DNA of 64,000 bases, taken from a virus. Below, piece by piece: positions 3,380-58,850 of the stretch. A model generated the notes under the pieces. It was not told the DNA's origin and did no database searches. It saw nothing but the letters and a program-made list of their open reading frames with translations. The stretch lies in IMG/VR virus record IMGVR_UViG_3300042887_005053, positions 1-64,000 of that record; one strand, 5' to 3'. How positions within the stretch are numbered: position 1 is the stretch's first letter; each line of letters opens with the position of its first letter. The translations under genes were made by a program, and so were the position numbers.

Positions 3380-3652
3380 ATGAAATACTTAAAGAAGTTT
3401 AATGAAAATGTTGAAGGTTTAACAAAAGGCGAGATTCGGAAAATAGCAGATCGATTGTTGGACAAATTAGGCACTGCTATACACTTTTATTCTGTTTTAC
3501 CTGAGTCACAAGAAGAGTATAAAATCAAAATTGATAACTGTTTGAAAGAGATTAAAGACTCTGGCATTGATTTTGAAAAGGATGTTGTTAAATCAGTAAG
3601 AGACAGAAAAGATCATATATTTTCAATTTTAGTGAAACACAATTTGATTTAA
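3380..3652 (+). CDS. Small protein with capsid-targeting-like N-terminus
   Basis: 90 residues, mostly helical by composition. The N-terminus MKYLKKFNEN matches the recurrent peptide M-x-(I/L)-K-K-F-x-E seen on about ten other proteins here. It resembles the T4 internal-protein targeting peptide, with a possible prohead-protease site after Glu9. The rest (Asp/Glu/Lys-rich) has no recognised domain. It starts 3 bases after the previous stop. Packaging in the head is inference only. Confidence 0.65.
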   Translation: MKYLKKFNENVEGLTKGEIRKIADRLLDKLGTAIHFYSVLPESQEEYKIKIDNCLKEIKDSGIDFEKDVVKSVRDRKDHIFSILVKHNLI

Positions 3653-3681
3653 GAGAGAATATATTTCTCAATAAATAAGTT

Positions 3682-4191
3682 ATGCAGTATAACATAGTTA
3701 CTAATTATAAAGTAAATCAAATATTTAAATCAAAGAGTAGATACTTCAGAGTTAGTCTTGGATTATCTTCTACTCAAGAAAGTAATAGTGGAGATCGAGT
3801 CTTTTCTCAAAAAGATGATTTTGCTTTTTTTTACAATAGCCAATATCAAACTACAATTTTTGGACAAGGGAATATTGGTAATATTAAGTTCTACACTGAC
3901 CATTACATAAAAGAAGATAAAATAGCTTTTTATTTTGACAAAGAAGAGTTCATTTTCGACTTTGATGAAAAAATAGTTAATGAAAAAGGAGTAGACTTCT
4001 ACTTAGGTCACTTAATTAAAACTATTGAAACTCAATACGCTGATAGAATAAAAGAAAAAGAAGAAGTTAAAGAAGAACAAAAGAAAGAAGTTGGTGATGC
4101 AACTAAAGTATTTGAAAATCCTGGTAATGTAAAGTATGCTGATTTGAAAGCTTATTTAGATAAGGTAAGAACAGAAAGGCTAAAGACTTAA
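3682..4191 (+). CDS. Unknown phage protein
   Basis: 169 residues. The first 110 are beta-rich with many aromatic residues (YFRVSLGLSS, FAFFYNSQYQ). A Lys/Glu-rich linker (about residues 119-135) and a short helical C-terminus follow. No family recognised. It is the last gene of a three-gene plus-strand set, and its stop overlaps the convergent gene by 4 bases. Confidence 0.65.
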   Translation: MQYNIVTNYKVNQIFKSKSRYFRVSLGLSSTQESNSGDRVFSQKDDFAFFYNSQYQTTIFGQGNIGNIKFYTDHYIKEDKIAFYFDKEEFIFDFDEKIVNEKGVDFYLGHLIKTIETQYADRIKEKEEVKEEQKKEVGDATKVFENPGNVKYADLKAYLDKVRTERLKT

Positions 4192-4421
4192 TTATAAAGT
4201 TGTATTGTTAATAGTTGCCAAATATACTTTTGATAAGTTTCATCTAAATCATCAAAGTCTATTTCATAATCTAAGCCACCTACAAATTGGTGTATGTAAA
4301 TTTTATTTCTTTTTCTAAATTCGATTGAGTTAATTACAAAAAATCCAAGATCGATTTCAAGTACTAACTCATTGAGACCGAGACTAACTATTTTGATTAC
4401 ATTTATTATCTCTTTCTTCAT
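4188..4421 (-). CDS. Small unknown protein
   Basis: 77 residues, beta-rich, with an acidic segment (EIDFDDLDE). TATATA lies five bases before the ATG, as at other genes here, which supports both the gene and its start. Overlaps the convergent gene by 4 bases. Function unknown. Confidence 0.6.
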   Translation of the reverse strand: MKKEIINVIKIVSLGLNELVLEIDLGFFVINSIEFRKRNKIYIHQFVGGLDYEIDFDDLDETYQKYIWQLLTIQLYN

Positions 4422-4465
4422 AAAATTATATATTGAGTTAAAGAATAGAGAGATTATCGAAACAA

Positions 4466-4657
4466 TTAATCTGTCAAAAATTCTAACTTTTCTTCACGAA
4501 TAAGTTGAACAATTTCATTATATCTCATTTCAAGACAATCTAAAGTTGTTAAACCTAATTGTATTCTTAGATCAAAGAGTTGATCAGAAGAAATCTTTAA
4601 GTCAACATTTCTATAGAAAATAGAACCTTCAGATAAATATAAGTTTTTAGATTTCAC
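4466..4657 (-). CDS. Small unknown protein, GTG start
   Basis: 63 residues beginning with GTG (MKSKNLYLSEG). A TATATATTAATTA run stands before the start. The C-terminal half looks helical and amphipathic. It is divergent from the gene at 4695 and the two share a 37-base intergenic region with TATATAT motifs usable on both strands. Function unknown. Confidence 0.55.
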   Translation of the reverse strand: MKSKNLYLSEGSIFYRNVDLKISSDQLFDLRIQLGLTTLDCLEMRYNEIVQLIREEKLEFLTD

Positions 4658-4694
4658 TAATTAATATATATGATAAATTAAAATTAGTTTTTTT

Positions 4695-5954
4695 ATGATT
4701 TCAAAATATCAATCATTCAAATTAGATTCAATTTTAGAATCTTTATTACTTGAAAGTAAATTATATTTTTCAGATAGGCTTTTTTCTTTAATTAGTTCAC
4801 TTCCTTCAAATAAAGTAAAAGACTTATTAATAAATCTTCAGAAATCTGGTAAAGACTTAAATCTTAATCAGAATTACTTTGATTTTTCGGATTCTAAAGA
4901 AGAAGTTACTTTTATTCAAGATAGAAGAGCACAATCTATTTTAGGTGACCAACCAATGAAATTTAAAACTAATTCTAATGCTTCAAGTGCTTATCTTACT
5001 TTCAATAAGAAAAATGATGATACCTATACAAATCAATTAATTTTTGATGATTTGAATTTTGATCCAGAGACTTCGAGTAAACAAATACCAGGTTCAGATG
5101 TTGTCGGAGAAATAGTTGCTGAAACACCATCAAGAAAAACACCTGGTAAAATCTATATTTTATTTAAGTGGAAAAATGGTGATTCGGATGATTTTGTAGT
5201 ATTGAATAAAACAGCTGTTTCAAGTTATGACGATAGAATCGATAGAATTTGGCAATTGACTAAAAATCCAATTAGAATTGGAAGGGCTATTAGGTCTGTT
5301 ATCAATGCAGCTGGTGAAACAGTAACAGATGCTGAGATTGAACAATTTGTTAATGACTATAAGTCTGCTTGGGATATTATGAATGATGCATTTTCTAAGT
5401 TTGATATAGTTAACTCTGATAGTATTGCACATTGGTATTCTAATAATCAGTATGAAGGAGGTGGTCGATCTACTTTAGGAAATTCTTGTATGGCTGAGGT
5501 TGATTCAGATTTTTTTGATATCTATGTAGCTAATACTAGGGTTTGTAGTTTAGTTATTCTTTATGGTGATCAAGGTAAGGTAATTGATGGTAAATTCAAA
5601 GGTACTAAAATTAGAGGAAGAGCTTTACTTTGGAAAACTAATGAAGGTGATATGTTTATGGATAGAATCTATTACAATAACGAATCAGATGTTCAGTTAT
5701 TTAAGAGATTTGCTGAAAAGAATGGTTGGTGGTATAAAAGCTCTCAAGATTCAGATACAGATTTTCAAGCATCAAATGGTTCAAATGCTAAATATCCAAC
5801 TTACACAGTAACATTAGAAGAAGTACACTTTGATAATTATCCTTATGTTGATACAATGTGTTATTTAAATAAATCTACTAGAAAAATCAGTAACAATACA
5901 TCTGATATGAGAGAGGAAATGAGAAGTACCTCTGGATATCTTGACGAGATATAA
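4695..5954 (+). CDS. Phage protein, SCM/GRALLW family, copy 1
   Basis: 419 residues. The C-terminal half (about residues 250-390) carries LGNSCM, FDIYVAN, RGRALLWKT, MDRIYY, FAEKNGWWYK and YPYVDT in order. The same series appears in the 401-residue protein at 45586-46791, so the two are diverged paralogues. I recognise the motif set as recurrent in phage proteins but cannot name the fold or activity; the Cys and conserved Arg-Gly-Arg suggest a catalytic or ligand site. The N-terminus MISKYQSF...SILESLLLES resembles the capsid-targeting-like peptide found on other proteins here, which the paralogue lacks. Confidence 0.75.
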   Translation: MISKYQSFKLDSILESLLLESKLYFSDRLFSLISSLPSNKVKDLLINLQKSGKDLNLNQNYFDFSDSKEEVTFIQDRRAQSILGDQPMKFKTNSNASSAYLTFNKKNDDTYTNQLIFDDLNFDPETSSKQIPGSDVVGEIVAETPSRKTPGKIYILFKWKNGDSDDFVVLNKTAVSSYDDRIDRIWQLTKNPIRIGRAIRSVINAAGETVTDAEIEQFVNDYKSAWDIMNDAFSKFDIVNSDSIAHWYSNNQYEGGGRSTLGNSCMAEVDSDFFDIYVANTRVCSLVILYGDQGKVIDGKFKGTKIRGRALLWKTNEGDMFMDRIYYNNESDVQLFKRFAEKNGWWYKSSQDSDTDFQASNGSNAKYPTYTVTLEEVHFDNYPYVDTMCYLNKSTRKISNNTSDMREEMRSTSGYLDEI

Positions 5955-9720: not shown

Positions 9721-9730
9721 GTGTCTTTTA
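9705..9730. terminator. Bidirectional intrinsic terminator
   Basis: AAAAGACACT / AGTGTCTTTT with a 5-base AT loop, between the convergent genes at 9364 and 9728. The A- and T-runs serve both strands. Confidence 0.88.
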
Positions 9731-11065
9731 ATCTACAGATTCTTCACTATCAATAAATACAAAATTACTATCATATTTACTTAAAAACTCTCTTGCTGTA
9801 TTCAATTTTGAAGTATTGTCTCTTATCCATTGTTTAGCCATTTCAAATGGTTCACATCTTAAAAGAGCTTTTTCGTAACTCTCTATACTTTTATAAGCAC
9901 TTAGTATTTCTTCTACACTCATCTTCTTTAATTCTTCTGCTTTAATCATATTCATAACAAATGAAAAATTAGAATTATTTTTAATATAACCTAAAGCATA
10001 ATCTTTTCTGGAAATATTAAGGTCTTTGAAGTGTTTATAAGCTTCATTTATTTCTTCAACTTTGTCGTTAATGGATTTTTTGACAATCTTTATTATCTTA
10101 TCGATCCTTTCGTGAGCTTCTTTTTCATCTTCTGGAATTTGTCCTAAGATATCATCAATTTTATCATCTAAAATATATCCAACTATAATATTCTCTCTAT
10201 GAATATCATCTGTTAATAAACCATGTCTTTCCATATACCATGGTGTTTTGATTTTAAAGAAAAAGTCTTTTCCAGATTTATCTTCAGCTTGAACAATAAC
10301 TCCTTCTTTGTCAACTTGTTTAGCAGTTAACTCAATCAAATTATCCAAATCCTTGAAATCATCTTCAAATGGTGCAATACGAATTGTTCCTATTTTATCT
10401 AAATAGTCTTTAATATCTAAATGTTTTCCAGTTTTGTTATCTCTCATTCTCAAAAGAATGAGGTCTTCTTCTAAGTATCTTAAAACGATTCTATTAGCTG
10501 GTGAAACATACTCAAAAATTGCAGTAATGTTATTATTTAAACACCAATCCACAAATTCTTTGATATCATTTCTTTCGCTATAGATTCTATTAATTCCATC
10601 TGCTTGATCATTATCAAATCCCATTTTAGATTTACCTAATACTTTACCGTTTGGTAACTTAATAAATGATGCTATACTACCATCTTCTTTGTTGTTAACA
10701 TATTTGATCTTATAATCTTTAACAATTGAATACATAGAGTCAGTTACTTGATTCAAGTTGAAGAACTTCTCAAGTAATAAAAATCTATTAAATAAAGATC
10801 CGTCTTTATTGAAAACAAAAGTCAATCCTCTCATCTCATAAGCTTTTACTTCTGGTTTGTTTTCTAAAGGTGAAGCAAAATCTTTATGTTGAGCAAGACG
10901 ATAATTGAATACAGAAATATTATATCCATCAATTACATACTTAGATTCATAGAAGGCAGAGTCTTCCTTAGAGCACATCTCAATGCAATCCTCATAAGTA
11001 GGAAGATAGTAAGATGTAATAGAATTAGATTCTTTTAAGTATTGGTTGAATGTGTAGATTTTCAT
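9728..11065 (-). CDS. rnlA: RNA ligase 1 (T4 RnlA/gp63 family)
   Basis: 445 residues. Family motifs in order: YRLAQHKDF, EMRGLTF, RFLLLEKFFNLNQ, the nucleotidyltransferase motif I KEDGS with catalytic Lys126, FEYVSPANRIVLRY, KEGVIVQ (motif IV) and FFKIKTPWY (motif V). It joins 3'-OH and 5'-phosphate RNA ends with ATP; in T4 this heals tRNAs cut by host anticodon nucleases. The N-terminus MKIYTFNQYLKESNS matches the T4 internal-protein targeting peptide pattern with a possible cleavage site after Glu12, which the core enzyme does not need. Its ATG overlaps the stop of the upstream ART-like gene by 4 bases. Confidence 0.93.
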   Translation of the reverse strand: MKIYTFNQYLKESNSITSYYLPTYEDCIEMCSKEDSAFYESKYVIDGYNISVFNYRLAQHKDFASPLENKPEVKAYEMRGLTFVFNKDGSLFNRFLLLEKFFNLNQVTDSMYSIVKDYKIKYVNNKEDGSIASFIKLPNGKVLGKSKMGFDNDQADGINRIYSERNDIKEFVDWCLNNNITAIFEYVSPANRIVLRYLEEDLILLRMRDNKTGKHLDIKDYLDKIGTIRIAPFEDDFKDLDNLIELTAKQVDKEGVIVQAEDKSGKDFFFKIKTPWYMERHGLLTDDIHRENIIVGYILDDKIDDILGQIPEDEKEAHERIDKIIKIVKKSINDKVEEINEAYKHFKDLNISRKDYALGYIKNNSNFSFVMNMIKAEELKKMSVEEILSAYKSIESYEKALLRCEPFEMAKQWIRDNTSKLNTAREFLSKYDSNFVFIDSEESVD

Positions 11066-11808
11066 ATTTCTTTTTCAAAAATAGATATGTTAGAAGGACT
11101 AATATTATCTAAGGTATAATATCCTTCCTCATATCTTGGATCTTTAAATAATTTCAAGTTTGTGTTGTTGACTTTAAATATTATCCATTTTGTATTTTTA
11201 TTCCATTTTTTATTTCCTAACTCATAATGATTAATATCTCTTTCTTCTGAGTAATGTAGTTTCATTTGAGGTATTAAATTTTTACAGTCTTGTGCACTTT
11301 TACACAAATAAATTCTATCTATATGTGATGATAGTTTTGATTTGCTTTTTGGAAACAATCCCGATTTTAATATTTTTTTCTCATATTCTTGAATACTTAA
11401 ATGATAAAGTTCACCATCATATTTAGATTCTTCATCGAATTTTGAATCATACTCTATTGTTAGATTTGAAATAATTGATTTTTTTAATTTTATTTCTGAT
11501 TCATCATATTTTTTTAATCTGTTAAAACCATTTGACAATTCCAATAATTGAGAAGATGGAAACCACCCAAATTTGTTTGTCATTAAAGATGATAACATAT
11601 CAAATAAATCATCAATTTTTGAACTGTCTATTGATCTAAAGTTTAAAAATTTTATACTTATAATATCATCTTTTATCTGTCCTTCAACTTCAAATTTTAG
11701 TTTCTTTAATGTATCTAAAGTATATCTTAGTGACCTTTCGCCATCATTAGTTCGTATCAGACCTTCATTAATTGATTGTAAATAGTCTATGAAATTTTTT
11801 ATAAACAT
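11062..11808 (-). CDS. ADP-ribosyltransferase/RNA 2'-phosphotransferase-like protein with targeting-like N-terminus
   Basis: 248 residues. The C-terminal half reads GELYHLSIQEY, ILKSGLFPKSKSK, HIDRIYLC, WIIFKVNNTNLKLFKDP and YTLDNISPSNI. This order (Tyr-His, GL-P, RIYL, DP, I-P-I) is that of small ART-fold proteins such as the KptA-like and DarT-like groups. Assignment to a subfamily is not possible by eye. The N-terminus MFIKNFIDYLQSINEG fits the recurrent capsid-targeting-like peptide, with a possible cut after Glu15. T4 also packages an ART (Alt). Translationally coupled to the RNA ligase. Confidence 0.6.
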   Translation of the reverse strand: MFIKNFIDYLQSINEGLIRTNDGERSLRYTLDTLKKLKFEVEGQIKDDIISIKFLNFRSIDSSKIDDLFDMLSSLMTNKFGWFPSSQLLELSNGFNRLKKYDESEIKLKKSIISNLTIEYDSKFDEESKYDGELYHLSIQEYEKKILKSGLFPKSKSKLSSHIDRIYLCKSAQDCKNLIPQMKLHYSEERDINHYELGNKKWNKNTKWIIFKVNNTNLKLFKDPRYEEGYYTLDNISPSNISIFEKEI

Positions 11809-12504: not shown

Positions 12505-12515
12505 AGAGTATATAT

Positions 12516-12541
12516 AAAAAAAGACTCGATAAAATCGAGTC
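12516..12541 (-). terminator. Intrinsic terminator, minus strand
   Basis: Stem GACTCGAT / ATCGAGTC with a 3-base loop, then seven T's on the minus strand. It ends transcription from the small membrane gene at 12842 and is followed at once by the TATATATA motif of the next gene. Confidence 0.85.
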
Positions 12542-17600: not shown

Positions 17601-18599
17601 TTATGTAATTACTTTTTCAAATTCATATTTAGGAACTGGAGTTACCTTATTCAAAACTAATTTAACATCAGATGTTCTTTCAATTTGTTTTAATTTTTTC
17701 AGTGAAATCCCTCTTAGGATCTTTTGATCAAACAGTGAATCTATTAACTCATTGAACTCCTCAATAGTTTTAGTTTCACTAATTCTTGATAGAACTACAC
17801 TATGTTGTGTAGCCTGAACTGCCCAAATGTCAGATGGTGTCCACTTAGCAATTGGTATACCGGTTGTTTCAGGAAAACTTCTGTATTTATCATTAATTAT
17901 TTTGGTTAGTCCTTCTTTGTAGCCGATTTGGTAATAGATATAACTTTTACGTCTACTTAAAGCATTGTCATCTCTAGATTTATCTTTTGTGTAGATTGGT
18001 CTTATTTCAAATAAGGCATTTGCTGTATTTATAAACGACTTAATCCAAGTAACAGAATAATTTTCAATTATATCTCTGTTGATAACGATAGGTAGTCTGA
18101 CTTGTGAAAGTATTTCTGGCTTAATCTCACTTTCTTCATTAAAAAGTTCATCTAGTGATTCTTGTGTTAGACTTACATCACCTTTTGATTGTCTTAAAGA
18201 CAAAAATAAACATTGAATACATTCTACTAATCTAGTATCTGTGCTGCCAAGTGAACTACCGCCACTACTTCCGAATTCTGATGTTTTTTCAATATCATTT
18301 AATTGATAAGTTTGGCCGTTTGCGCCTTTTATTATCTTTTTATATCTAGGTCCGGATTTGAAAAAAGTCTTTGCTTTATCAGGATCATACTTACCATCAT
18401 CGGTTATATTTGGAACGATTTCATCTGGATTAACGACTTTAGTAAGTTTGTTTGAAACTGTGCCTCTAGGTTTGAATGTAAACTCATCTTCGTCATTCAT
18501 TTTACGAACTAAAACATCACCCCTAAGGTCACCAGACTTTGAGGTTTTTTCTAACTCTGATAAGTCAATATTGGCTTCGTAAAATTTTTTTATTTGCAT
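17601..18599 (-). CDS. Unknown protein with capsid-targeting-like N-terminus
   Basis: 332 residues. The N-terminus MQIKKFYEANIDL fits the recurrent peptide, with a possible protease site after Glu8. A Gly/Ser-rich linker (FGSSGGSSLGS, about residues 108-118) separates it from a helical domain with IPIAKWTPSDIWAVQ and, later, EEFNELIDSLFDQKILRGISLKKL. I have an impression of this KWTPSDIW...GISLKK pattern from other phage proteins but cannot name the function. TATATA lies four bases before the ATG. Packaging is inferred only. Confidence 0.65.
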   Translation of the reverse strand: MQIKKFYEANIDLSELEKTSKSGDLRGDVLVRKMNDEDEFTFKPRGTVSNKLTKVVNPDEIVPNITDDGKYDPDKAKTFFKSGPRYKKIIKGANGQTYQLNDIEKTSEFGSSGGSSLGSTDTRLVECIQCLFLSLRQSKGDVSLTQESLDELFNEESEIKPEILSQVRLPIVINRDIIENYSVTWIKSFINTANALFEIRPIYTKDKSRDDNALSRRKSYIYYQIGYKEGLTKIINDKYRSFPETTGIPIAKWTPSDIWAVQATQHSVVLSRISETKTIEEFNELIDSLFDQKILRGISLKKLKQIERTSDVKLVLNKVTPVPKYEFEKVIT

Positions 18600-29442: not shown

Positions 29443-29688
29443 ATGAACATTAAAAAATTTAATCAATTCTCATTAGTTATGGAATCTGAAACTATTAGTT
29501 TTCTCAAAGGCTTAAAAAAGCCCGAGATAAACAGTGATTTGAATGATCTTTTTAGAAGTAATGACTTCTTGGAAAGAAAAGAGTTAATTGAAGACATCCT
29601 ATTAGAAATAGGTGATATAGTAGATGATGAACAATATCACAAAATTGAAGATGAATTAAATTCAGAATTTTTACAAAAAAATAACTAA
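29443..29688 (+). CDS. Small protein with capsid-targeting-like N-terminus
   Basis: 81 residues. N-terminus MNIKKFNQFSLVMES fits the recurrent peptide (I-K-K-F-x-x-F ... V-M-E then Ser), with a possible prohead-protease site after Glu14. The rest is acidic and helical. TATATA lies four bases before the ATG. Function unknown; packaging is inferred. Confidence 0.65.
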   Translation: MNIKKFNQFSLVMESETISFLKGLKKPEINSDLNDLFRSNDFLERKELIEDILLEIGDIVDDEQYHKIEDELNSEFLQKNN

Positions 29689-33060: not shown

Positions 33061-34251
33061 TTATTTGAAATCTTTATATCTAATAACACTTTCGAACTGA
33101 CCACTCAATATTTTTTCTTGTTCATCTTGTCCTTGATGACAAAGACTTACAAAGTTATCTAATATTTTGTGTGAGTTCTCAACATCTTCTGGATGAAATA
33201 AAACGCCATATCTTTCATTCTTATCATCAGCTATAGCAGCAATCATATTATCAAGCTTACCAACTACTTTATATCCTGATGGACAAGATTCTGGATAATC
33301 ATTAAACGAGAAACTTAATTTCATATTTTTAATGTCTAACCCGTTGAATAACTTACAGTTTGAATATTCGGTTAGGGTTTTGTGATCTAAAGTTAATTTG
33401 TCATTTTCTAAAATTCTAACACCTGCATTCTTACACATTGATTGTAGACCAAAACAAATACCTAAAATTGGGTTCTTAGCGACTCTAATAGCTTGTTTAG
33501 ATAGTTTATCATCAAACTGATTAATTCTGTACTCTGAACCAGTCAAAATAGTTCCTACTACTTTTTTTGTTTCGAAAGCTTTGTTTAATTCAGTTATATC
33601 AGAAACAACAAGATGTTCGATTCCTCTGGTTCTACAATATTTCAGTAGATTTTTTAAGAATCGATTTTTTTGAGGTTCAGTGTTATTTACTATTAGTAAA
33701 ACTTGATTTTGGCTCAGTGGTGTTATTTTTGCACTTTCTACGACTTGATATGAATCAGGATACTTATCCATGAAAGTAAAGTCTTTTCTTGATAATTCAA
33801 AATTAGTATTGAAACTACTAAACACCTTAATCATTGCATCTAACGATTCATCTGATAATCCAAAATGTGTATCTTCATCTGATTTAGAACCAATTCCGTC
33901 ATAAAAGTGAACTTTAACGATATTTGGTGCTTCAATTGTGAATTCATAAATAACACGATCACCGTGAGTCATATCAACATTTAATTTAATCTCATTAGTT
34001 CTGGTATCAGTAATTACATGAATATCAAAAGTCATCAAATCTGGATCACCATCAGCTAAAACATCACCACCAGTCTCATCTGGTGTATTAACGAAATAAG
34101 TAACTCTTAAAATACTGTTTTCTCTTGTGATATCAGATAAAACATAGTCATGTGTACCATAACTAGTATATAGTTGTAAATTTTTAGGAAAGTGATCTCT
34201 AATATCATCTTTCATGTAATCTAAGTTTTCGTTAAATCTTTTAATTCTCAT
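33061..34251 (-). CDS. Class I glutamine-amidotransferase-like protein with targeting-like N-terminus
   Basis: 396 residues. ATG at 34251 follows the upstream stop directly (TAATATG); an in-frame ATG 4 codons earlier overlaps that gene. N-terminus MRIKRFNENLDYM fits the recurrent peptide. The first 190 residues are an unknown beta-rich domain; the C-terminal part is a GATase-1 fold: GTILTGSEYRIN, the nucleophile in GICFGLQSM, and HPED. This resembles GMP-synthase or HisH glutaminase domains more than CarA. The acceptor reaction is unknown. It is coupled to a ppGpp-hydrolase-like gene. Confidence 0.75.
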   Translation of the reverse strand: MRIKRFNENLDYMKDDIRDHFPKNLQLYTSYGTHDYVLSDITRENSILRVTYFVNTPDETGGDVLADGDPDLMTFDIHVITDTRTNEIKLNVDMTHGDRVIYEFTIEAPNIVKVHFYDGIGSKSDEDTHFGLSDESLDAMIKVFSSFNTNFELSRKDFTFMDKYPDSYQVVESAKITPLSQNQVLLIVNNTEPQKNRFLKNLLKYCRTRGIEHLVVSDITELNKAFETKKVVGTILTGSEYRINQFDDKLSKQAIRVAKNPILGICFGLQSMCKNAGVRILENDKLTLDHKTLTEYSNCKLFNGLDIKNMKLSFSFNDYPESCPSGYKVVGKLDNMIAAIADDKNERYGVLFHPEDVENSHKILDNFVSLCHQGQDEQEKILSGQFESVIRYKDFK

Positions 34252-35056: not shown

Positions 35057-35153
35057 AGGTTATATATTAAATTACTTACTAAGAAAGTTAATAATACTGT
35101 ATCGTAATCATTATTTCAGTTTTATATATAGTGTATATATAAAAAATATAGCT

Positions 35154-35165: not shown

Positions 35166-36344
35166 ATGAAAATTAAAGATTATCAAGGTTTTCTTGAAGA
35201 GTTAAGTAATAAAGATATGTATGAAATTATTCCTAATTCAGTTAAAGAATTGAATAACATTTTCAAAAAATCTGGAAAGAAACTTTATGTAGTTGGTGGT
35301 GCAGTCCGTGATTTTCTAACAGGAGAAAAACCAAAAGACTTTGATCTTGCTACAGACGCACTTCCAGATGAAGTGCTAGAAATTCTTGGTCACAAATATA
35401 GAACTAACTTACAGGGTAAGGCTTTTGGTGTGGTAGTTGTTTATACTGAAGATGAACCAGCAGGAATGGAAATTGCAACTTTTAGATCAGATGTTACAAA
35501 AGGTAGAAATCCAGAAGTTAAATTAGGAGTTACAATAGAAGATGATGTCAAAAGAAGAGATCTAACTTATAACTCACTTTTTTATGACTTAGATAAAAAA
35601 GAAATTGTAGATTTAGTTGGTGGTGTTAAAGACTTAGAAGATAAAATAACTAGAATGGTTGGAGATCCGTTGGAAAGAATTGAAGAAGATTCTTTGAGGA
35701 TTTTAAGAGCATTCCGTTTTTCTGCTAGATACGGAACACCTTTGGATGAATCTTTAATTGAATCTATAAAAAAGAGAAAGCAGTTACAGAATGTCGATCC
35801 GGAATCTGGTGAAATGAAAAGAATTTCACAAGAAAGAATTTGGGAAGAAATGAAAAAAGCTTACTATCAAGCTAAGTCTTATGTTCACTACTTGGAATTT
35901 TTTAATTACTTTGACATGTGGGAAGAAGTTTTCCCAGGAGCTATTATTAATAGAGATATTGTAGAATGTCATGAACTTGTTACTTATATAGCTAACTTAT
36001 TCAAATTTGATAATAAGTCAGATTTAGAAAGCAGATTAGTAATAAACTATAAAATTGAAAGTGATATTGCTTCAAAAGTTGTTTTCTTGATAAATCTACT
36101 TGATCTAAGAACTGACAATGCTTTTGACTTATATAAACAAAAAACAAGGTCTAACTGTCAAACATCTACCATAATTGATTGGTTAGATGCTAATAACATT
36201 CATAGAAAAATATTTATAAGATTTATTGATTATGCTCCGAGTGTTTCTGCTGAAGAATTAATGAGTCAAGGCTTCAAAGGTAAAGAACTTGGTCAAAAGA
36301 TTAAAGATTTAGAGATTAAAAAATTCAAAGATTTATTAAGATGA
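35166..36344 (+). CDS. cca: CCA-adding tRNA nucleotidyltransferase (class II) with targeting-like N-terminus
   Basis: 392 residues. Class II motifs: LYVVGGAVRDFLTG, KDFDLATDALP, KRRDLTYNSLFYDL, EEDSLRILRAFRFSARYG and a helical tail. It adds or repairs the 3' CCA of tRNAs with CTP and ATP. The N-terminus MKIKDYQGFLEELSN strongly resembles the T4 internal-protein targeting peptide, with a possible site after Glu12, and is not needed by the enzyme core, which starts near residue 25. Together with RNA ligase and a 2H phosphoesterase it suggests tRNA repair. Overlaps the next gene by 4 bases. Confidence 0.92.
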   Translation: MKIKDYQGFLEELSNKDMYEIIPNSVKELNNIFKKSGKKLYVVGGAVRDFLTGEKPKDFDLATDALPDEVLEILGHKYRTNLQGKAFGVVVVYTEDEPAGMEIATFRSDVTKGRNPEVKLGVTIEDDVKRRDLTYNSLFYDLDKKEIVDLVGGVKDLEDKITRMVGDPLERIEEDSLRILRAFRFSARYGTPLDESLIESIKKRKQLQNVDPESGEMKRISQERIWEEMKKAYYQAKSYVHYLEFFNYFDMWEEVFPGAIINRDIVECHELVTYIANLFKFDNKSDLESRLVINYKIESDIASKVVFLINLLDLRTDNAFDLYKQKTRSNCQTSTIIDWLDANNIHRKIFIRFIDYAPSVSAEELMSQGFKGKELGQKIKDLEIKKFKDLLR

Positions 36345-36601
36345 AAAAATTCACAGAGTCAGTAGACGACTCCGGTACAAGAGATATTGATGGAACTTGG
36401 CTACCAGAAACGCCACATGCTAAGCTTAGAAACAAGTTAGGTACTTTTTGGACTTTATCTCAGTTGATTTCGGATAAACAAAGATTTCAAACACTTATTT
36501 CATCTGATACTGGAAAAGATTTGATTGTTGATACTGCTAATCAGTGTGAGTTGAACAAAGAAAGTATTTTAGAACTAATCAAAATAATCGAAGAATTATG
36601 A
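36341..36601 (+). CDS. Small protein with short targeting-like N-terminus
   Basis: 86 residues. MKKFTESVDD is a shortened form of the recurrent peptide (K-K-F-x-E-S). The rest contains GTWLPETPHAKLRNKLG and is helical. Sits between the CCA enzyme and the 2H protein with 4-base overlaps on both sides, so the three are one translational unit. Function unknown. Confidence 0.6.
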   Translation: MKKFTESVDDSGTRDIDGTWLPETPHAKLRNKLGTFWTLSQLISDKQRFQTLISSDTGKDLIVDTANQCELNKESILELIKIIEEL

Positions 36602-37338
36602 TTCATAGAGTTGAGTATTTAAAAGATATTTTAGGTAGTAATTATATTGGAATTAATGTACCGATTCAAATTGTGAGTCCATTTCTAGATAGACTTAAAA
36701 ATGTTTTAGGTGATGAATATGATGTTTATGTTAAGAATCAACAAAACAGAGATAATGGTCACTATCATATAACTGTTATCAATGTAATGGATTATAATCG
36801 ACTTTCGAAAGAAATGGGTATAGATAAATTTATTAACTCACTAGAGTCAGTTTTTGATTTTGATTTTGATGATGTTCAGTTTTTAGGACTTGGTAAAGCA
36901 CAAAAACAAGACAATAAATCGTATTTTATTGTAGTTCGTTCTGAAAAGTTACAAGAAGTCAGAAGAAAATATGGATTAAGTGAACAAGATTTTCATGTTA
37001 CTTTAGGTTTCAAGTGGAAAGATGTCTTTGGAGTAAGGAAAAATGAAATTATTAAAGAAAGTGAACCTTTCTTAAAACTTTTAAAAAAGTCATATTATAA
37101 CAATCACGAAACTTTTGATTTTGTGAAAGAAATTGAAAATTTTGAAGGTGATTCTGAGCAAGAAATTGAACCAATAGAAATCAGAGAAACTACTGCTACA
37201 TTTCGTAATGGCAAAAATGACTACATAACAGTTTCTTTGATCGATAATGAATTTAGAATCACTAATAAGTATCAAGATTTTAGTAATAAACCAATTCTAT
37301 CACATACATTAATTTCGAAAAAATTTTTAGATATATAA
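36598..37338 (+). CDS. 2H phosphoesterase superfamily protein
   Basis: 246 residues. Two H-x-T motifs, H57-I-T59 (GHYHITVI) and H133-V-T135 (FHVTLGFK), lie 76 residues apart, as in LigT/2',3'-cyclic phosphodiesterases and the anti-CBASS nuclease Acb1. It could open cyclic phosphates left by RNases or hydrolyse cyclic oligonucleotide signals. The C-terminal 80 residues are a separate beta-rich part. Its operon with a CCA-adding enzyme favours an RNA role; the specific activity is not determined. Confidence 0.8.
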   Translation: MIHRVEYLKDILGSNYIGINVPIQIVSPFLDRLKNVLGDEYDVYVKNQQNRDNGHYHITVINVMDYNRLSKEMGIDKFINSLESVFDFDFDDVQFLGLGKAQKQDNKSYFIVVRSEKLQEVRRKYGLSEQDFHVTLGFKWKDVFGVRKNEIIKESEPFLKLLKKSYYNNHETFDFVKEIENFEGDSEQEIEPIEIRETTATFRNGKNDYITVSLIDNEFRITNKYQDFSNKPILSHTLISKKFLDI

Positions 37339-43813: not shown

Positions 43814-43821
43814 TAAGATTA

Positions 43822-43993: not shown

Positions 43994-44002
43994 ATTTAAA
44001 AA

Positions 44003-44034
44003 TTTGTTTATTCGGAATTTTATAACTATTTTTG
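44003..44034 (+). promoter_or_regulatory. Bacteroidota-type promoter
   Basis: TTTG (44003-44006), 20 bases, TATTTTTG (44027-44034). Drives the gene at 44053 with an 18-base leader. Confidence 0.7.
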
Positions 44035-44052
44035 TTATCTAAAATAATATCT

Positions 44053-44913: not shown

Positions 44914-44934
44914 AAATTAATAAAAATATTATAG

Positions 44935-45538: not shown

Positions 45539-45585
45539 TTTTTTTATTTAAAATATTTAACTTATATTTGTAAAAATCTAAATTT

Positions 45586-46791: not shown

Positions 46792-46826
46792 TAATAAACA
46801 AAAACAAAATCTCTCATATATAGTGT

Positions 46827-47549: not shown

Positions 47550-47551
47550 AA
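47510..47551. terminator. 19-bp perfect hairpin between convergent genes
   Basis: TTTCACTGAGATATTAAAT and its exact complement at 47533-47551 with an AATT loop. It covers the last codons of the RecB-like gene. It lacks a clear T-run, so termination is likely but not typical. Confidence 0.6.
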
Positions 47552-47562
47552 TTGAGTTAAAT

Positions 47563-50500
47563 TTATACTTTAGTTAAATGATAACTAATCGTTAAGTTAA
47601 AAGAAGCATTTAATCCACTACCAACTGAACTTGGTAGTGTTGGATTTCCATAAGTTATTTGTGAAGAAAACACCTGAGCCGTTCCACTTCTAATTACTGG
47701 ACTTTGGCCTTTCACGAGTGTTGATCTTGGATCATTTGGTGAGAACTCACCAAATCGAACAGCTTTATAAACTCTACTCTGTGTAGAGGTTAACATAAAA
47801 TCTACAATTTGTGGTTTATTACTTACACCATCCCCAATCATTATTTGTTCATTAGTTGAGTAACCAGTTGCTCCAGCTCCAAATACCTCTACTATACACT
47901 CGTCTATAACAACAACTGAATCTATTGGAACATCAATATCAAGACTTACTGGATTATCTCCTAAATTTTGAATTATTGTATCATCTAAATATTTTGTTAC
48001 TATTTTTTTCTCGTTGAACTGATCTAAATTAATTTTGCTAACATCTTTTTTAATTAACGGTTTAGCATTTGTGATAACATAACCAGTATTAGGTGAACCT
48101 TTTATAGGTGTTATTTCTTGTGTTATTGGGACTGATACTCCATCAACATTACAATCAACTGCCAACCACTCAAAACCAAGGAAATTATATTCTTCGACAC
48201 TCTCTACTACTCCTCCAATTTCACTACACTTTTCAATGGTCTCTTCCCATTCATCTTGTGATATAAAGCCAGAATAATCTTCATTCGGATTATAACCAGT
48301 GTTTGTGCCAATTAATAATTTAGCTTCTGATACTTTTGCTTTTGGTTGATATTTTTTGAATTTTGTATTAAATTCAGTTGGTTCACCTTTTGAGCCTTTA
48401 GTTTGAAGTTTCGTAAACTGAAACTCCCAAACTCTTTGTGGTTGTGCAGATAAAGATAAGCTTTGTGTAGATCCACCTTCATATCTTGCGATAAATGTTG
48501 GATTTTCAGCTGTGTAATCCATTCCAGCATATACTCTTTGAAAAGATCTAGATGATGTGTATCCTACATATATCACTGGTGATTTTAGTTTGTTAGGTGT
48601 ACCAAAAGTTATATAACTATCAGAGTGTAGATACATTCTATCATAATAAAGATCGTCATATTTAATTAATATCGGTAATCTCATACTACTATTTTCACCA
48701 AAATAAGAGAAATTTTGTTCCTTATCACCAGTGTTTAACATACCAACACCATTAACTGGTTGTGAGTCAATAGAACTTATACGACCAATCACCATGATAC
48801 TTTGAGTACCGCCTTCTCCATGAACAGATCTAGTTAAATTAACAGTTAAAGCTTTAGCAAAATCACCTTCAGCATTAATTAAGAAATTAGAATCTAATGA
48901 CCAGTCTTGAGAAATACTAGTTCTATCGTTTAATATTACAATTTCTCTCTTACCTAATCTTGTTAGATCTCCGGTTTTTCTAATTGATACATTGTTATAA
49001 GTAGTAAAGTCTCCAGTGACTAATATTCTGTTTTCAAAAATTCCAGTTCCACTTGGAGCTTTAGTTATATCAAAAACATTTCCATTAAATCCATCTCCAA
49101 AATTTTGACTATGTGGAGTATCATAATCACCTTCTAATCTAATTATACGATTATAAGTAACTCCGTTATATTGAGTGAAATTGCCACCGATTATTAAAGT
49201 ATTGTTTAGTGTGTCTTCATAAATAGTATTTACTCTACCATTAAATCCACTTGCTGTAGTGTTTAATGTTCCATCAACATTAAGAACAATAAATTTATCA
49301 CAAGAGATTCCATCAAATGATGTAAAGTCACCACCAACAAATATCTTTGTTTTATCCTCACTTAACTTAATAGTAAATACTTTATTATTGAAACCAGTAC
49401 CAATATTAGTAAGAAAAGTACTATCAATTGCTCCGGTTGAGTTGACTCTAACAATTCTATTTACAGTTGTAAAAGATAAATCATTAGGTGATTGTTTCCA
49501 TCCAGTAAATTCACCAGCTATGATATAATCGTCAGGATCAGGTGAGTTATTCAAAACAACTATTGATCTAACTGGTCCATTCACTCTCATTTCAAATGTG
49601 TTATCTATAGTTCCACTATCATTAGAGTTATTGATTCTTATTAAATAAGGTATATTCTCTTCATCGTACTGTTCAAATAATCCACCAACTAAAATTCTAC
49701 CACTGTTATCTGTAACTACAGTATGAATAATTTGACCAGGTAAATCATTTACATCACTACTAAATGATTCCGATACAAAGTAATCAGAGTAAAAATTAAT
49801 ATTTCTTGTGCCATCGTTAAGTAGCTTTGATAAAAACCCAACACTAAATGTTGTTCCTCCGTTAGCAGTCACACCTGGATACCCACCACCTAAAATTACT
49901 TCACTGTTGAACTCAGTTATTACTGATAGATGATAATCTTCACCTTCATCCCAACCAGTATGTAGTTCAACGCCACCTGGACCTTCATAAATTGGGTATC
50001 CACCTGGTTTATAACCAATAACAGTCCAAAGACCAGATTCCAAGTCAGGTACACATTGATAATTACTACAAACAAAACCGTTAGGACATAAATCATTCTC
50101 TAGTGAACAACCAAGTCCAGATACTAATGCAGAAGTTATAACTTCTCTTATGCAGTACCCATCAACACAAACATATCCAACAGGACACTCATCGTCTGCA
50201 TTACAGCTTAACACTTCATAGTCTTCACCTTCATCCCAACCAGTATGTAGTTCAACACCACCTGGACCTTGATAAATAGGATAACCACCTGGCTTTTGAC
50301 CGATTTCTACCCATAATCCGGATGCTAAGTCAGGTATACACTCACCATCTAAACAATAAAAACCTTCTGGACAACCGCCATCGATTTGACAAGCAAGGCC
50401 TGAACTCAAATTAGAAGTAATAATTTGTAGAACACAGTATCCACCAACACATACATATCCACTTGGACAATCTGAATTAATCTCACATTCTAAAATTGTT

Positions 50501-52290: not shown

Positions 52291-53070
52291 TTATTCAAAG
52301 TAATCATCAATGTAATTAGCGTCTACCGTATCATTTAGTGATGGATTAGAATATATAAATGATTTAACAATCAATATTGCTTGCTTATATTTATCAATTA
52401 ATTTAGTAGAATCATCATCTATTAAAGTAAGCGAATAAGTTGGCGAGAATATCTGCATCCAATAGTCTCCATTAGTAGGTAGAATTTGGTTATCATAGTC
52501 ATAAGTATAAGGTATAAAACACTCATAAATGTTACTGTTGTATCTCACATAATCTTCTTTTGCGAATGGTATAACTTGAGTTGGATCTTCCTCAAATGTT
52601 GGTATAGCGTTTAATACAGAGTCAGGTAGACCACTTGTTACTTCTAAATTAATAATTCTATCTTGATCTTGTTTTTCAACTAGTTTAGGGTCTTTGTATA
52701 AAATATAAGGTTCAATTTGCTCTACTTCTTTAATGTCTCCTAAATAATGATTAGTTGGTGTATCATAGAAACTAAATCCAATTGGATAAAGTTGATTATC
52801 ATCAAATAGTTTCTTTAATTTAATTTGAAAAAGAGAGTTAGTTACTTGTCTTACTTTATCATAGGTTTGTCTCTTAAAATCACTTATACTGAGATATCTT
52901 TTAATATTGATTTTAAATTTAGTGTTCATTACATCTTCAAGTAATGAATACTTACCACTATCTATTAGTTCATCAATATATTCAAAATATTCAAACTTGC
53001 CGTCCTGTCCTTTTTGTGCTATTTGTGATATCTTAATTGAGACTTTATTAAACTCACGTCTGTAACTCAT
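52291..53070 (-). CDS. Putative baseplate/tail protein
   Basis: 259 residues. Helical start with SYRREFNKVSIKISQIAQ; a middle with FYDTPTNHYLGDIKEVEQIEPYILY; and NIYECFIPYTYDYDNQ resembling short carbohydrate-binding or beta-sandwich modules. Its place between the adhesin and the internal-protein candidate, with a one-base overlap to the latter, argues for a virion role. Exact homology not recognised. Confidence 0.6.
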   Translation of the reverse strand: MSYRREFNKVSIKISQIAQKGQDGKFEYFEYIDELIDSGKYSLLEDVMNTKFKINIKRYLSISDFKRQTYDKVRQVTNSLFQIKLKKLFDDNQLYPIGFSFYDTPTNHYLGDIKEVEQIEPYILYKDPKLVEKQDQDRIINLEVTSGLPDSVLNAIPTFEEDPTQVIPFAKEDYVRYNSNIYECFIPYTYDYDNQILPTNGDYWMQIFSPTYSLTLIDDDSTKLIDKYKQAILIVKSFIYSNPSLNDTVDANYIDDYFE

Positions 53071-54122
53071 TATTGATTTAGTATTTTTTGAATCTCGGCA
53101 ACTTTGTCTTTGTTTTTATCATCTTGAATAAATTCGGCGAATTTTACAACTTGTCCCATTTTACCTTCATCCTGCTTTATTTTTCCAAGAACTTCTTTTG
53201 CCTTTGCTGCATTTTCACCAGGCTCTTCAGCAGGTCCTATTATTTCAGCATAACTCTTTTTAATAGTTGGTTTTCCATCTTTATCTAAAAGCACCACACT
53301 ATCTGGTCTATCTTGATCGTTCAACGAATCAATTGTCTTAACACCAACTATATTTGCTTGATCTTCTGGTTTTTTCTTAGGGTCATAATCAGACTTCTCT
53401 TTGTCTTTTAACAAGTAAATTACAGGTGTTTTTTTATCAAAAAGCTCCTTTAATTTATCATAGTTCATTGAGTCATCTTTTTGACCACTTTTCTTCTTTG
53501 CTTCATCAAATGCCTTTTTTACTTCTTCTTCTGTGAAATTCTTGTCAACATCAATTTGTAAAGACTTTTGTAGATCATCAAAGAATTTATTAGCAACTGC
53601 TTTCTTTGCCTTTAGATCTTTTGCCTTATTAACTTGATCAATATAGTTTTTCTTTGAAAATTTGTAGTTAATATCCTTTTTAAGTATACCTCTTTGTGGG
53701 TCTAAAACACCTACTAGTCCTACCCAATCAGCTGCTTTATTTCCCAGTAATAAAGCTTTAGCTATTTCTTTGATTGCAGCAGATTTATCTTTACCAAATG
53801 CTGATTCAACGTCTTTTCCGATATTTTCAGCAAGTTGTACTAGAGTGTTAATCATATTATCCATAACTCCAATAACTGAAGTTTCATCTTGAAGATTATT
53901 AACTTCTTTTTGTGCAGCATCAATAGCTTGATTGATATTAGACATCAAAACATCTTTTATCGAGTCTGGATCGTCTTCCTTGAACATTTTTTTGAAGTCA
54001 TTGACTAAATCTTTGAATGGTGCAGAAAAAACACCAGCTAATTTTCCTAAAGCGCCTTTAATTATACCACCTATGAATTCTTCGTTAATTTGTTGGTATT
54101 CTTTAAATTTTTGTACATCCAT
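53070..54122 (-). CDS. Probable internal head protein with targeting-like N-terminus
   Basis: 350 residues. N-terminus MDVQKFKEYQQINEEFIGG fits the recurrent peptide (Q-K-F-x-x-Y ... I-N-E), with a possible site after Glu14. A Gly-rich, membrane-active-like stretch follows (GGIIKGALGKLAGVF), then a long Lys/Asp-rich helical body without recognised domain. This is the composition of internal proteins delivered with DNA. Located in the virion gene block. Confidence 0.6.
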   Translation of the reverse strand: MDVQKFKEYQQINEEFIGGIIKGALGKLAGVFSAPFKDLVNDFKKMFKEDDPDSIKDVLMSNINQAIDAAQKEVNNLQDETSVIGVMDNMINTLVQLAENIGKDVESAFGKDKSAAIKEIAKALLLGNKAADWVGLVGVLDPQRGILKKDINYKFSKKNYIDQVNKAKDLKAKKAVANKFFDDLQKSLQIDVDKNFTEEEVKKAFDEAKKKSGQKDDSMNYDKLKELFDKKTPVIYLLKDKEKSDYDPKKKPEDQANIVGVKTIDSLNDQDRPDSVVLLDKDGKPTIKKSYAEIIGPAEEPGENAAKAKEVLGKIKQDEGKMGQVVKFAEFIQDDKNKDKVAEIQKILNQ

Positions 54123-55416: not shown

Positions 55417-56370
55417 ATGAATATAAAAATTTTTTCTGGTTCCAATTATAAAGATTTAGGTAAGCAAATCAGTGAACATTTAGGTATCGAAATGGGTAGT
55501 CTGAGAATTGATAAATTCAAAGACGGTGAGATACTACCTTGTTTTTTAGAATCAATCAGAGATTTAGACATATTCTTTGTTAACAGTACGGACTCTTCTG
55601 AGTCTATTATGGAGACTCTTTTAGTAACTGATGCCGCAAAAAGAGCTGGTTGTAAATCATTTACCTTGGTCTCACCGTATTCTGGTTATTCAAGGCAGGA
55701 CAAAACAGATCATTTGAGATCTTCAATTGGAAGTAAGCTTTTAGCCGATATACTTGAAAAAGCCGGTGTCTCAAGATTAATAACTATAGACTTACACGCT
55801 AGTGCAATTCAAGGATTTTATAACATACCAGTGATTCACTTAAATGGAAACAAGGTATCGAGTAACTATATTAAATCTCTTAATTTAGATAATCTCTGTA
55901 TAGTTGCACCAGATCAAGGTGCTGTCAAAAGAGCTTCTGATTTTTGCAAAGCTTTTCCAGAGTCTTCTTTTGCTATGATTAATAAAAGAAGGCTTAAACC
56001 AAATGAAATTCATTCAATGGAGCTTGTTGGAGATGTTACTAATAAGAATGTAATAATTGTAGATGATATGGCTGATACTTTAGGTACTATGGTAAAAGCA
56101 TCAGACTTACTTTTATCTAAAGGTGCTACATCTGTAAGATGTGTAGCGACTCACGGAATATTGAGTGGTGAAGCACTAAATAATCTTGAAAACTCACAGA
56201 TAACAGAGTTAGTTGTTTCTGATACTATTAACTCAACTCTTGATAAAGAAGTAGCAATGAGTAATTCTATACACAGAATTAAAGTAATAAGTTGTTCATA
56301 TCTATTAGCTAAATCAATTTCGGCTCTTTATCAAAAGAGGAGTATTCACGAAATAAATGTAATTGAATAA
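55417..56370 (+). CDS. prs: Ribose-phosphate pyrophosphokinase family (Prs or ADP-ribose-type homologue)
   Basis: 317 residues. YSGYSRQDKTDHLRSSIGSK, IDLHASAIQGFYN and the PRPP loop VIIVDDMADTLGTM are present; the loop in cellular enzymes is usually VDDMIDTAGT, so it differs here. It makes PRPP from ribose-5-phosphate and ATP. Some phage homologues instead act on ADP-ribose to rebuild NAD+ against NAD-depleting defence. Context is nucleotide and kinase genes. Which substrate is used cannot be told from the sequence. Confidence 0.88.
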   Translation: MNIKIFSGSNYKDLGKQISEHLGIEMGSLRIDKFKDGEILPCFLESIRDLDIFFVNSTDSSESIMETLLVTDAAKRAGCKSFTLVSPYSGYSRQDKTDHLRSSIGSKLLADILEKAGVSRLITIDLHASAIQGFYNIPVIHLNGNKVSSNYIKSLNLDNLCIVAPDQGAVKRASDFCKAFPESSFAMINKRRLKPNEIHSMELVGDVTNKNVIIVDDMADTLGTMVKASDLLLSKGATSVRCVATHGILSGEALNNLENSQITELVVSDTINSTLDKEVAMSNSIHRIKVISCSYLLAKSISALYQKRSIHEINVIE

Positions 56371-57580: not shown

Positions 57581-57611
57581 AAAAAGAGAGATTAATTTCT
57601 CTCTTTTTTTT
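57581..57611 (+). terminator. Intrinsic terminator
   Basis: AAAAAGAGAGA / TCTCTCTTTTT with a TTAATT loop and a long T-run, between the glycosyltransferase and kinase genes. Confidence 0.88.
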
Positions 57612-57615
57612 TATT

Positions 57616-58173
57616 ATGAAATCAAAACTAATAACTATTATAGGTTCTCCAGCTAGTGGAAAATCCACTCTTGCGTCTGATGTTCATACAGAACTCAAGA
57701 AGTTAGGAAAGAACTCTATTTTCATAACAGAAGCCGCTACAGACTATATTGCTGAGTTTGGTATACCAAACACTCCTGTAGATCAACTTGTAATTTTCTA
57801 TAAACAACTTAATAGAGAAAGAATGTATATAGATTCAAAAGATTACATTGTTTGTGATTCTTCTGGTATACTTAACTACTTCTACTTTAGAACATTATTT
57901 GAGAACAAATTATCTAATAAAGACATAGCAGTAATCAATCACCTACAAAAAGAAATTCTTAAAACGATAAATCAGTGGTCTCATATTTTCTATGTACCAG
58001 CAATGATTGAAAACACTGAAGATAATATCAGATATCATGACAAAGAAGATATTATTAAAATAGACAGGTGGATTAAGTCTTATTTAGAGTTAGAAAATAT
58101 TAATCATACAGATTTATCTAAAATAGATTTGCAAAAGAGGAAAGACTTTATAATTAAAGAGATATTAAAATAA
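57616..58173 (+). CDS. P-loop kinase, AAA_28/NadR-like
   Basis: 185 residues. Walker A GSPASGKSTLAS (residues about 10-21), then TEAATDYIAEFGI and a FYVPAMIE region with D-x-x-R like those of NadR-type ribosylnicotinamide kinases and phage nucleoside kinases. Substrate uncertain: NAD salvage is possible beside the PRPP-synthetase-like gene. Followed by a strong terminator. Confidence 0.75.
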   Translation: MKSKLITIIGSPASGKSTLASDVHTELKKLGKNSIFITEAATDYIAEFGIPNTPVDQLVIFYKQLNRERMYIDSKDYIVCDSSGILNYFYFRTLFENKLSNKDIAVINHLQKEILKTINQWSHIFYVPAMIENTEDNIRYHDKEDIIKIDRWIKSYLELENINHTDLSKIDLQKRKDFIIKEILK

Positions 58174-58200
58174 AAAAGAGACTTTTAAGTCTCTTTTTTT
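58172..58200. terminator. Bidirectional intrinsic terminator
   Basis: AAAAAAGAGACTT / AAGTCTCTTTTTT, tight loop, between the convergent kinase and the 58200 gene. Confidence 0.9.
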
Positions 58201-58850
58201 TATTTACTTAATAATTTTATCAAGTCTTCAGTAATGATGGAAATCATTTTTCTTCCATCTACTTCAACTAAAGGTATATCTTTCACCCAAGAATACTTAT
58301 CATTACCATCGATTGAAATTCCTTCAATCATTTTTACGATTTTTTCATTGTCTGAGTATTTTGAACAGTAATATTCTTTTAAATCTGTAACAAATTTAAC
58401 TAAGTCAACGCCCTTTTTATAGTTATACTTAACCATTTGAAGTTCGTTGTCTTGTCTTTCAACCATGATGTACCAAATTGATGACTTAGAAACTTTTACA
58501 TTTTCTAAGAAGTTAAACCCTTTAGATGCTTTGACTCCTTTTGGTAGTTTTGCAACTTTACCATAGAATTTAACATCTTCATTTTTAGCTTTATCTGATG
58601 ATTCGTCTTCTTCAGAATCAACTGTTTGGCCACTTGGCATCATGTAATTAGTTGACATAAACTGTTCACCTTTTGACTTCTTATAAGGAAGATTTGGAAC
58701 AGCAGGTCTATCACCTTCAGTTTCAGGTAATGCCGAAGAGTGTGGATCTTCTTGAACTTCTTGTTTTTTAGATCCAGATAATTCAGAGAATTTTTTAAAA
58801 GATGAAATCTTAGTTGATTCTTTTCCTGTTTCTTCGTTCTTTTTAATCAT
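58200..58850 (-). CDS. Unknown protein with embedded targeting-like motif
   Basis: 216 residues. After a polar lead of about 13 residues it reads KISSFKKFSELSGSK, related to the recurrent peptide with a site after Glu23. A Pro/Ser/Glu-rich disordered part follows (to about residue 90), then a globular C-terminal part with YIMVERQDNELQMVKY and a helical end. A virion role is possible. Preceded by a TAATATATAAG motif. Confidence 0.55.
   Translation of the reverse strand: MIKKNEETGKESTKISSFKKFSELSGSKKQEVQEDPHSSALPETEGDRPAVPNLPYKKSKGEQFMSTNYMMPSGQTVDSEEDESSDKAKNEDVKFYGKVAKLPKGVKASKGFNFLENVKVSKSSIWYIMVERQDNELQMVKYNYKKGVDLVKFVTDLKEYYCSKYSDNEKIVKMIEGISIDGNDKYSWVKDIPLVEVDGRKMISIITEDLIKLLSK

Follow-up and report, generated by a model that had tools for sequence, protein, structure and literature searches.

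Many otherwise unrelated proteins encoded in IMG/VR virus record IMGVR_UViG_3300042887_005053 start with the same kind of short N-terminal peptide, here called the tag. Its general shape is [FY]xx[FY][LI]xE followed by S, N, A or G, with roughly 6–16 residues up to the candidate Glu. The record is 204,336 bases long, and the window (the whole stretch of DNA under analysis, 64,000 bases) comprises its bases 1–64000. We consider it highly likely that the tag is a capsid-targeting sequence of the type found on the internal proteins of phage T4, here in a greatly expanded system in which tagged proteins would be packaged into the head, cleaved and injected with the DNA. An earlier note on the window had listed eleven such peptides, proposing that T4-like targeting would bring the enzymes that carry them into the cell. 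All eleven occur as written at the genes named (the 33061 gene has its ATG at 34251). The T4-like character of the peptide now gains from its geometry, a protease gene, a candidate site in the major capsid protein, a shared promoter and the position of the tag ahead of an RNA ligase core; cleavage, packaging and injection stay at the level of prediction.

The record's RNA ligase is 62–63% identical to proteins of two complete genomes, LR745206 (634,780 bases; hereafter W01) and LR756502 (642,428 bases; hereafter W02). Reciprocal best matches link 130 of its 215 open reading frames (ORFs) to W01 and 133 to W02. Genomes of more than 634 kb, with Bacteroidetes as predicted hosts, have been placed in the Mahaphage clade (PMC7162821), and with closest relatives of this size the record is most likely a fragment of a Mahaphage-type phage. 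The whole record, W01 and W02 were read, with genes taken from a simple codon-score caller, so that gene starts are predictions; the GC content of these genomes is 29–31%.

An unsupervised expectation-maximization motif fitted to the N-termini yielded log-likelihood gains of 628 (W01) and 638 (W02), compared with 143 and 148 for shuffled N-termini; for the 204 kb record alone, the gain was modest (231 vs 154 shuffled). With a score of at least 8 for the motif learned from W01 and W02 counted as a tag, 115 of 919 N-termini in W01, 141 of 932 in W02 (12–15%) and 16 of 215 in the record are tagged. The corresponding rates are 0.00–0.10% at internal Met sites (0 of 881 in the record) and 0.14–0.18% for shuffled N-termini, making the N-terminal rate in W01 and W02 about 100 times that of either control. 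Two sub-forms can be told apart: a T4-like form, strictly [FY]xx[FY][LIVMF]xE, present 7 times in the record, 25 times in W01 and 23 times in W02 (about 0.6–2.2 expected; 1.3–2.2 in W01 and W02), and a shorter form, MK[YH]LKxF(x)E, present 12, 60 and 60 times (0–0.3 expected). Taken together, the sub-forms mark 156 of 919 ORFs in W01, 175 of 932 in W02 and 23 in the record, where a count by eye gives about 40. The motif search that the earlier note had suggested thus finds a shared peptide on a larger scale than was noted. Around the first Glu, P3 favors I, F, L or Y, while S (4.8-fold), A (2.7-fold) and N (1.7-fold) are preferred at P1′, preferences not seen in untagged N-termini in the same comparison. 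A scan of IMG/VR for exact DNA encoding MKYLKxFNE returned 98 stretches, many on contigs of 100–480 kb, and the tag is therefore not limited to these three sequences. No description of such a tag in megaphages was found in the limited collection of literature that we searched.

Shared ancestry of the tagged proteins does not account for the tag, as the 155 tagged proteins of W01 fall into 143 sequence clusters past residue 20, and the 172 of W02 into 150 clusters past the tag, which excludes paralogy as its source. Codon use inside the tag is close to genome-wide usage, and conservation therefore concerns mainly the peptide. Judged by these comparisons, the tag is a peptide signal, neither a gene family nor a DNA signal. 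Orthologues of 39–65% identity retain its pattern with different letters: RNA ligase orthologues start with MKIYTFNQYLKES, MKLFKYIEFINEN and MKKLHRYNSFIKES, keeping [FY]xx[FY][LI]xE, and the starts of the CCA-adding-type enzymes are given in Table 1. In one W01/W02 protein pair (83.5% identical), the form of the tag is swapped (MIIKKYIKFINEEFDHL vs MKYLRTYEGFDHL). Residue 6 of T4 RNA ligase 1 aligns with residue 24 of the record's ligase, leaving about 18 extra N-terminal residues; the tag therefore extends the enzyme beyond the N-terminal end of its RNA ligase 1 core, in agreement, for this enzyme, with the earlier proposal that the peptides lie outside the enzyme cores.

The spacing of the tag is that of T4 IPIII (MKTYQEFIAE), where residues 4 and 7 are the main determinants of targeting, and residues 8 and 10 those of processing (PMC9026906). 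A gp21-like protease gene, which the earlier note had suggested looking for outside the window, is found at 202752–204336 of the record (Peptidase_S80, 25.2 bits with a cut-off of 23.4; S77 scores 19.6, under its cut-off of 27). In W01 and W02, the corresponding protein has about 700 residues and is encoded directly upstream of the capsid gene. Its first part is a prohead protease, whose H72 (in GEFDHP) and S127–S128 (in VSSRAAG) do not vary among four phages. This is followed by a scaffold of tandem 14-residue repeats (for example NISYSEYLAENLDK), which number about 11 in the record and also occur in genomes of 735 kb and 636 kb. The repeat core, YSEYIAEN or YSEYLAEN, resembles the tag: with the candidate cut marked by a slash, YSEYIAE/N has the spacing of T4 YQEFIAE/A and of the window tags FNQYLKE/S and YQGFLEE. 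A structure predicted from the record's own sequence alone shows a long helix over most of residues 235–434, in a model of low overall confidence with values of 70–86 across much of the repeats. The gp23-type capsid protein (95.9 bits in W02 and 88.7 in W01; cut-off 24.4) has matching candidate propeptide ends in four phages (FHSINE/NAY, HQMNE/NVGY, HQIHE/NVGY and HELYE/NAY). The record itself ends inside the protease–scaffold gene, in a short acidic repeat (EEGDKYEEEGDKY) that follows the tandem ones; the assembly may have been halted by the repeats. Scaffold-type repeats are also found in a small W01 ORF (460435; 66 aa), which begins MNYEDYIAESLEKNISYSEYISENLN and lies about 260 kb from the scaffold gene.

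Tagged genes have a promoter motif in common with structural genes. The motif TTAATATATA, trained on tagged genes of W01 and W02 only, scores at least 10 upstream of 48–49% of tagged and 13% of untagged genes in these genomes. In the record, which was outside the training, its exact form occurs 46 times (expected: 11) and lies no more than 100 nt upstream of 41 genes; it precedes portal, sheath, tail-fibre and baseplate genes as well as tagged genes. A promoter of their own or of their operon serves 36 of 40 tagged, 7 of 7 structural, 1 of 20 metabolic and 57 of 148 other genes of the record; the tagged set for this count was completed by eye, and the automatic W01 and W02 sets point in the same direction. 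The sole replication or metabolism gene with the promoter (34253) is co-transcribed with a tagged GATase gene. The T4 late promoter TATAAATA, tried as an alternative, is not enriched upstream of tagged genes. Since the promoter is common to structural genes, the tagged genes are probably late genes. Across the record and the relatives, TTAATATATA (e.g. at 2808–2817 and 29429–29438) most commonly starts 14–16 bases before the ATG, or else about 29–35 bases before it. The short spacing would put the transcription start at or beside the ATG, which suggests leaderless late mRNAs.

From these elements, a route into the head can be proposed. Tagged proteins would be made late, alongside head and tail proteins. 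The tag would form a short helix with an aromatic or hydrophobic residue at two positions three apart and would dock on the prohead core. As the scaffold, fused to the protease, consists of tag-like repeats, entry of a tagged protein into the core probably relies on mimicry of a single one of these repeats. The prohead protease would then cut after hydrophobic-x-Glu, and the freed cargo would be retained in the shell during DNA packing and exit with the DNA at infection, a step from targeting to injection modeled on the T4 precedent. A bolder version, to which we give somewhat less than an even chance, is that in the largest phages known, well over 100 different proteins (about 15% of genes) are loaded per head through this one scaffold-repeat-mimicking tag. 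The cargo would include polyphosphate kinase and a ready-made RNA-repair set (RNA ligase 1, CCA-adding enzyme and, in W01, a 2H-phosphoesterase/exonuclease) and would confront host defences ahead of all phage gene expression.

Alternative origins of the tag have to be weighed against capsid targeting. Early codons in phages of this kind are often A-rich. With genomes of 29–31% GC, AT-rich and lysine-rich gene starts favored in translation initiation might thus yield MKxxKxF by composition alone. This explanation is scarcely credible and largely refuted, given that shuffled N-termini and internal Met sites produce about one hundredth of the matches, that equally AT-rich phages score 0–3%, that there is a specific constraint on the Glu and the following residue, and that tag codons roughly match genome usage. 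Spread of the tag as a selfish or recombining 5′ module, through duplicated gene starts and with no targeting role, would fit the clustering of tagged genes in W01 (60 adjacent pairs vs 26 by chance) and a common upstream promoter that could be copied together with the tag. We nevertheless hold it to be very improbable, because the pattern is kept at 39–65% identity, the form can change and yet remain a tag, and many tagged genes lie inside operons and lack a promoter of their own.

It is also unlikely, if less so, that the tag is an address for somewhere other than the head, such as a membrane, a phage compartment, a degradation signal or the replication complex. The N-terminus could resemble a short amphipathic helix, and packaging is argued on indirect, in silico grounds. 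Such an address fits poorly with a set from which all 20 replication and metabolism genes examined are absent and whose expression tracks that of structural genes, with a hydrophobic-x-Glu end matching capsid protein sites and scaffold repeats, and with the use of the same geometry for the head in T4.

Several observations weigh against capsid targeting itself. The evidence on this clade comes from sequence, and packaging of 100 or more different proteins would be unprecedented. The strict regular expression was composed with the T4 sequence in mind, false tag calls exist (e.g. the large subunit of ribonucleotide reductase in W02), and no clear promoter was detected for the CCA gene and 36341. 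Head regions of Lak-A1, MaF61 and PTm1 contain no or almost no such tags, so the form of the tag varies by clade. For the distant relative CBB, a Pectobacterium phage with mass-spectrometry data (PMC5259590), a generic rule ([LIVMFY]xE[SANGTD] with the Glu at 5–12, the tighter of two windows tried) fits 9 of 43 virion proteins vs 20 of 298 (p=0.005), a modest enrichment that lends weak support.

Most tagged proteins belong to no family. Those that do are RNA ligase 1 (RNA_lig_T4_1, 2.2e-21, starting at residue 78), the CCA-adding-type enzyme (PolyA_pol, 2.9e-32, residues 40–161), a GATase (PF00117, 4.8e-14, residues 198–367) and polyphosphate kinase 2 (PPK2); there is also a tagged AAA protein (weak match) and, in the relatives, a tagged DHH-type protein (under the cut-off). 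PPK2 is tagged in all three phages (MKLKPFNTFLNEE, MPVYNFHKFINEE and MINNFIKFINEE), with the family match made in the record and W01 and the W02 protein assigned by orthology. Besides the tag, PPK2 (119840–121000 in the record, 143761 in W01 and 140679 in W02) has an N-terminal extension of about 140 residues, and it is possibly a head-carried nucleotide-supply enzyme. At 448257, W01 encodes a tagged protein in which a 2H phosphoesterase is fused to an RNase T-type exonuclease. With a weak match to the anti-CBASS protein Acb1 (6.7e-5, under the cut-off), it is a candidate injected counter-defence protein. The topoisomerase, helicase, primase, polymerase, clamp loader, DnaK, carbamoyl-phosphate synthase, and tail and baseplate proteins are untagged, and the tag is on 0 of the 20 replication and metabolism genes examined. 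Untagged nucleotide-synthesis genes at 62286–66097 and 55417–56370 encode the large (reaching past the window end) and small subunits of carbamoyl-phosphate synthase and a phosphoribosyl pyrophosphate synthetase.

Within the window (Table 1), the tags on the 4695, 9728, 11062 and 35166 proteins are strong candidates because their orthologues keep the pattern, and those on 3380, 29443, 33061 and 53070 are good ones. The tag-like starts of 17601 and 36341, for which no homologue was found in W01 or W02, are weak. The internal peptide of 58200, which the earlier note had counted in, is doubtful, with GFKKFSD in the orthologues and the Glu lost. Conversely, that list lacks at least one tag, the peptide MNDQKIYKYFEYLKEN at 2822. 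The same note's description of the 11062 product as similar to ADP-ribosyltransferases (ARTs) gained no backing: it has no Pfam match, its single-sequence AlphaFold model (pLDDT 47) is not usable, and an IMG/VR scan for relatives found none. Partial homologues of 33061 begin MKHIKRFLEH and MKYLRKFNESS, and the best W01 match of 53070 begins with a similar tag (MKYVRTFESFRNKKTEPVNEELLGG), in an alignment that spans the C-terminal part only. The region 35166–37338 is an RNA end-repair cluster in which the gene of the tagged CCA-adding-type enzyme adjoins those of a small protein, likewise tagged, and a 2H phosphoesterase; together with the RNA ligase 1 at 9728, it looks like a tRNA-repair set.

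Table 1. Tags, promoters and an untagged neighbor in the window (a slash marks the candidate cut; promoter distances are relative to the gene start)
Feature	Position	Strand	Basis
Tag MNDQKIYKYFEYLKE/N, 2822–3376 protein	2822..2866	+	Orthologues begin MKIRKYIEFITED / MKIRKFTEFINEE; promoter GAATTTAATATATATG from -18
Tag MKYLKKFNE/N, 3380–3652 protein	3380..3406	+	MK[YH]LKxF(x)E, ~0.1 expected in 204 kb record; 2822 operon
Promoter TTAATATATA of tagged gene 4695	4661..4670	+	Motif match
Tag MISKYQSFKLDSILE/S, 4695–5954 protein	4695..4739	+	Orthologues begin MILLKYNEYITEK / MNIKKYDDYISEK; own promoter at -38
Tag MKIYTFNQYLKE/S, RNA ligase 1 (9728–11065)	11030..11065	-	Orthologues keep pattern
Tag MFIKNFIDYLQSINE/G, 11062–11808 protein	11764..11808	-	W02 homologue begins MIYSFGKFINLLNEG; operon with 11812 promoter
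Promoter TTTTTTTATATATACT, operon 11812-11062-9728 (tagged 11062, RNA ligase)	12507..12522	-	Motif match
Tag-like start MQIKKFYE/A (weak), 17601–18599 protein	18576..18599	-	Promoter at -18
Tag MNIKKFNQFSLVME/S, 29443–29688 protein	29443..29484	+	F-x-x-F geometry; promoter at -18
Tag MRIKRFNE/N, GATase-like 33061–34251	34228..34251	-	Operon after 34253 promoter
Promoter TTAATATATA, operon 34253-33061 (untagged HD phosphohydrolase, tagged GATase)	35061..35070	-	Motif match
Tag MKIKDYQGFLEE/L, CCA-adding-type enzyme 35166–36344	35166..35201	+	Orthologues begin MILKKYKMFLES / MIITKYAKFLES
Tag-like start MKKFTE/S (weak), 36341–36601 protein	36341..36358	+	No promoter
Untagged 2H phosphoesterase	36598..37338	+	2H-SAK PF22547 3.8e-24; orthologue starts untagged too
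Tag MDVQKFKEYQQINE/E, 53070–54122 protein	54081..54122	-	Promoter at -34
Internal KISSFKKFSE (doubtful), 58200–58850 protein	58782..58811	-	Gene promoter at -41
Promoter of same class, baseplate wedge gene 59167–60885	60907..60922	-	PHROG baseplate wedge 3.9e-11

Earlier papers on jumbo phages have dealt with RNA repair and with ART and 2H proteins packaged in the head (PMC7824862, PMC9503650). What the tag would add is a listing, made from sequence, of predicted virion cargo for uncultivated megaphages, where most genes have no function. It also predicts that enzymes supposed to act in mid-infection, such as RNA ligase 1 and the CCA-adding enzyme, arrive with the DNA. Furthermore, a single copy of the scaffold repeat offers a concrete model of tag recognition, which is not explained for T4 in the literature surveyed.

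Among known systems, the T4 internal proteins IPI–IPIII are similar in having an N-terminal sequence of about 10–15 residues with an aromatic or hydrophobic pair three apart and a hydrophobic-x-Glu end, unrelated mature parts and a gp21-like protease in the genome. Applied to 50 kb of T4, the tag rules match exactly IPII and IPIII among 65 ORFs, which speaks for their specificity and not their independence, the rule being T4-inspired. In contrast to the roughly eight internal proteins of T4, there are about 150 candidates per genome here, large enzymes included; the dominant MK[YH]LKxFNES is shorter, and the scaffold, which consists of tag-like repeats, is fused to the protease. Sphingomonas phage PAU, a relative by its capsid protein, has a comparable start, MK[ST][LI]xxLYE (e.g. 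MKTLTxLYE), on the annotated scaffolding protein gp152, the 'internal capsid' proteins gp142 and gp154 and many neighbors around the head genes, although its letters differ and its protease is separate from the annotated scaffolding gene. Consecutive proteins of Agrobacterium phage Atu_ph07 (gp53–gp63) share the start M[KR]WxQL[TNI]E, but the tagged set is largely one paralogous family. They lie within the coding sequence (CDS) 31–76 cluster, of whose 46 proteins 29 were detected in virions (PMC6102473). Of the approximately eleven tagged paralogues at 39484–50592, several contain YRGM, a motif that hints at ADP-ribosyltransferases. The ejection proteins of phiKZ and SPN3US are likewise protease-processed head cargo of giant phages (a processing that is predicted here), but their propeptides are mostly longer than 100 residues and have no common short motif. 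Finally, polyvalent and MuF-fused effectors have been proposed as head-packaged enzymes, including ART and 2H domains (PMC9503650); unlike the arrangement proposed here, they ride on head-protein fusions and have no short cleavable tag.

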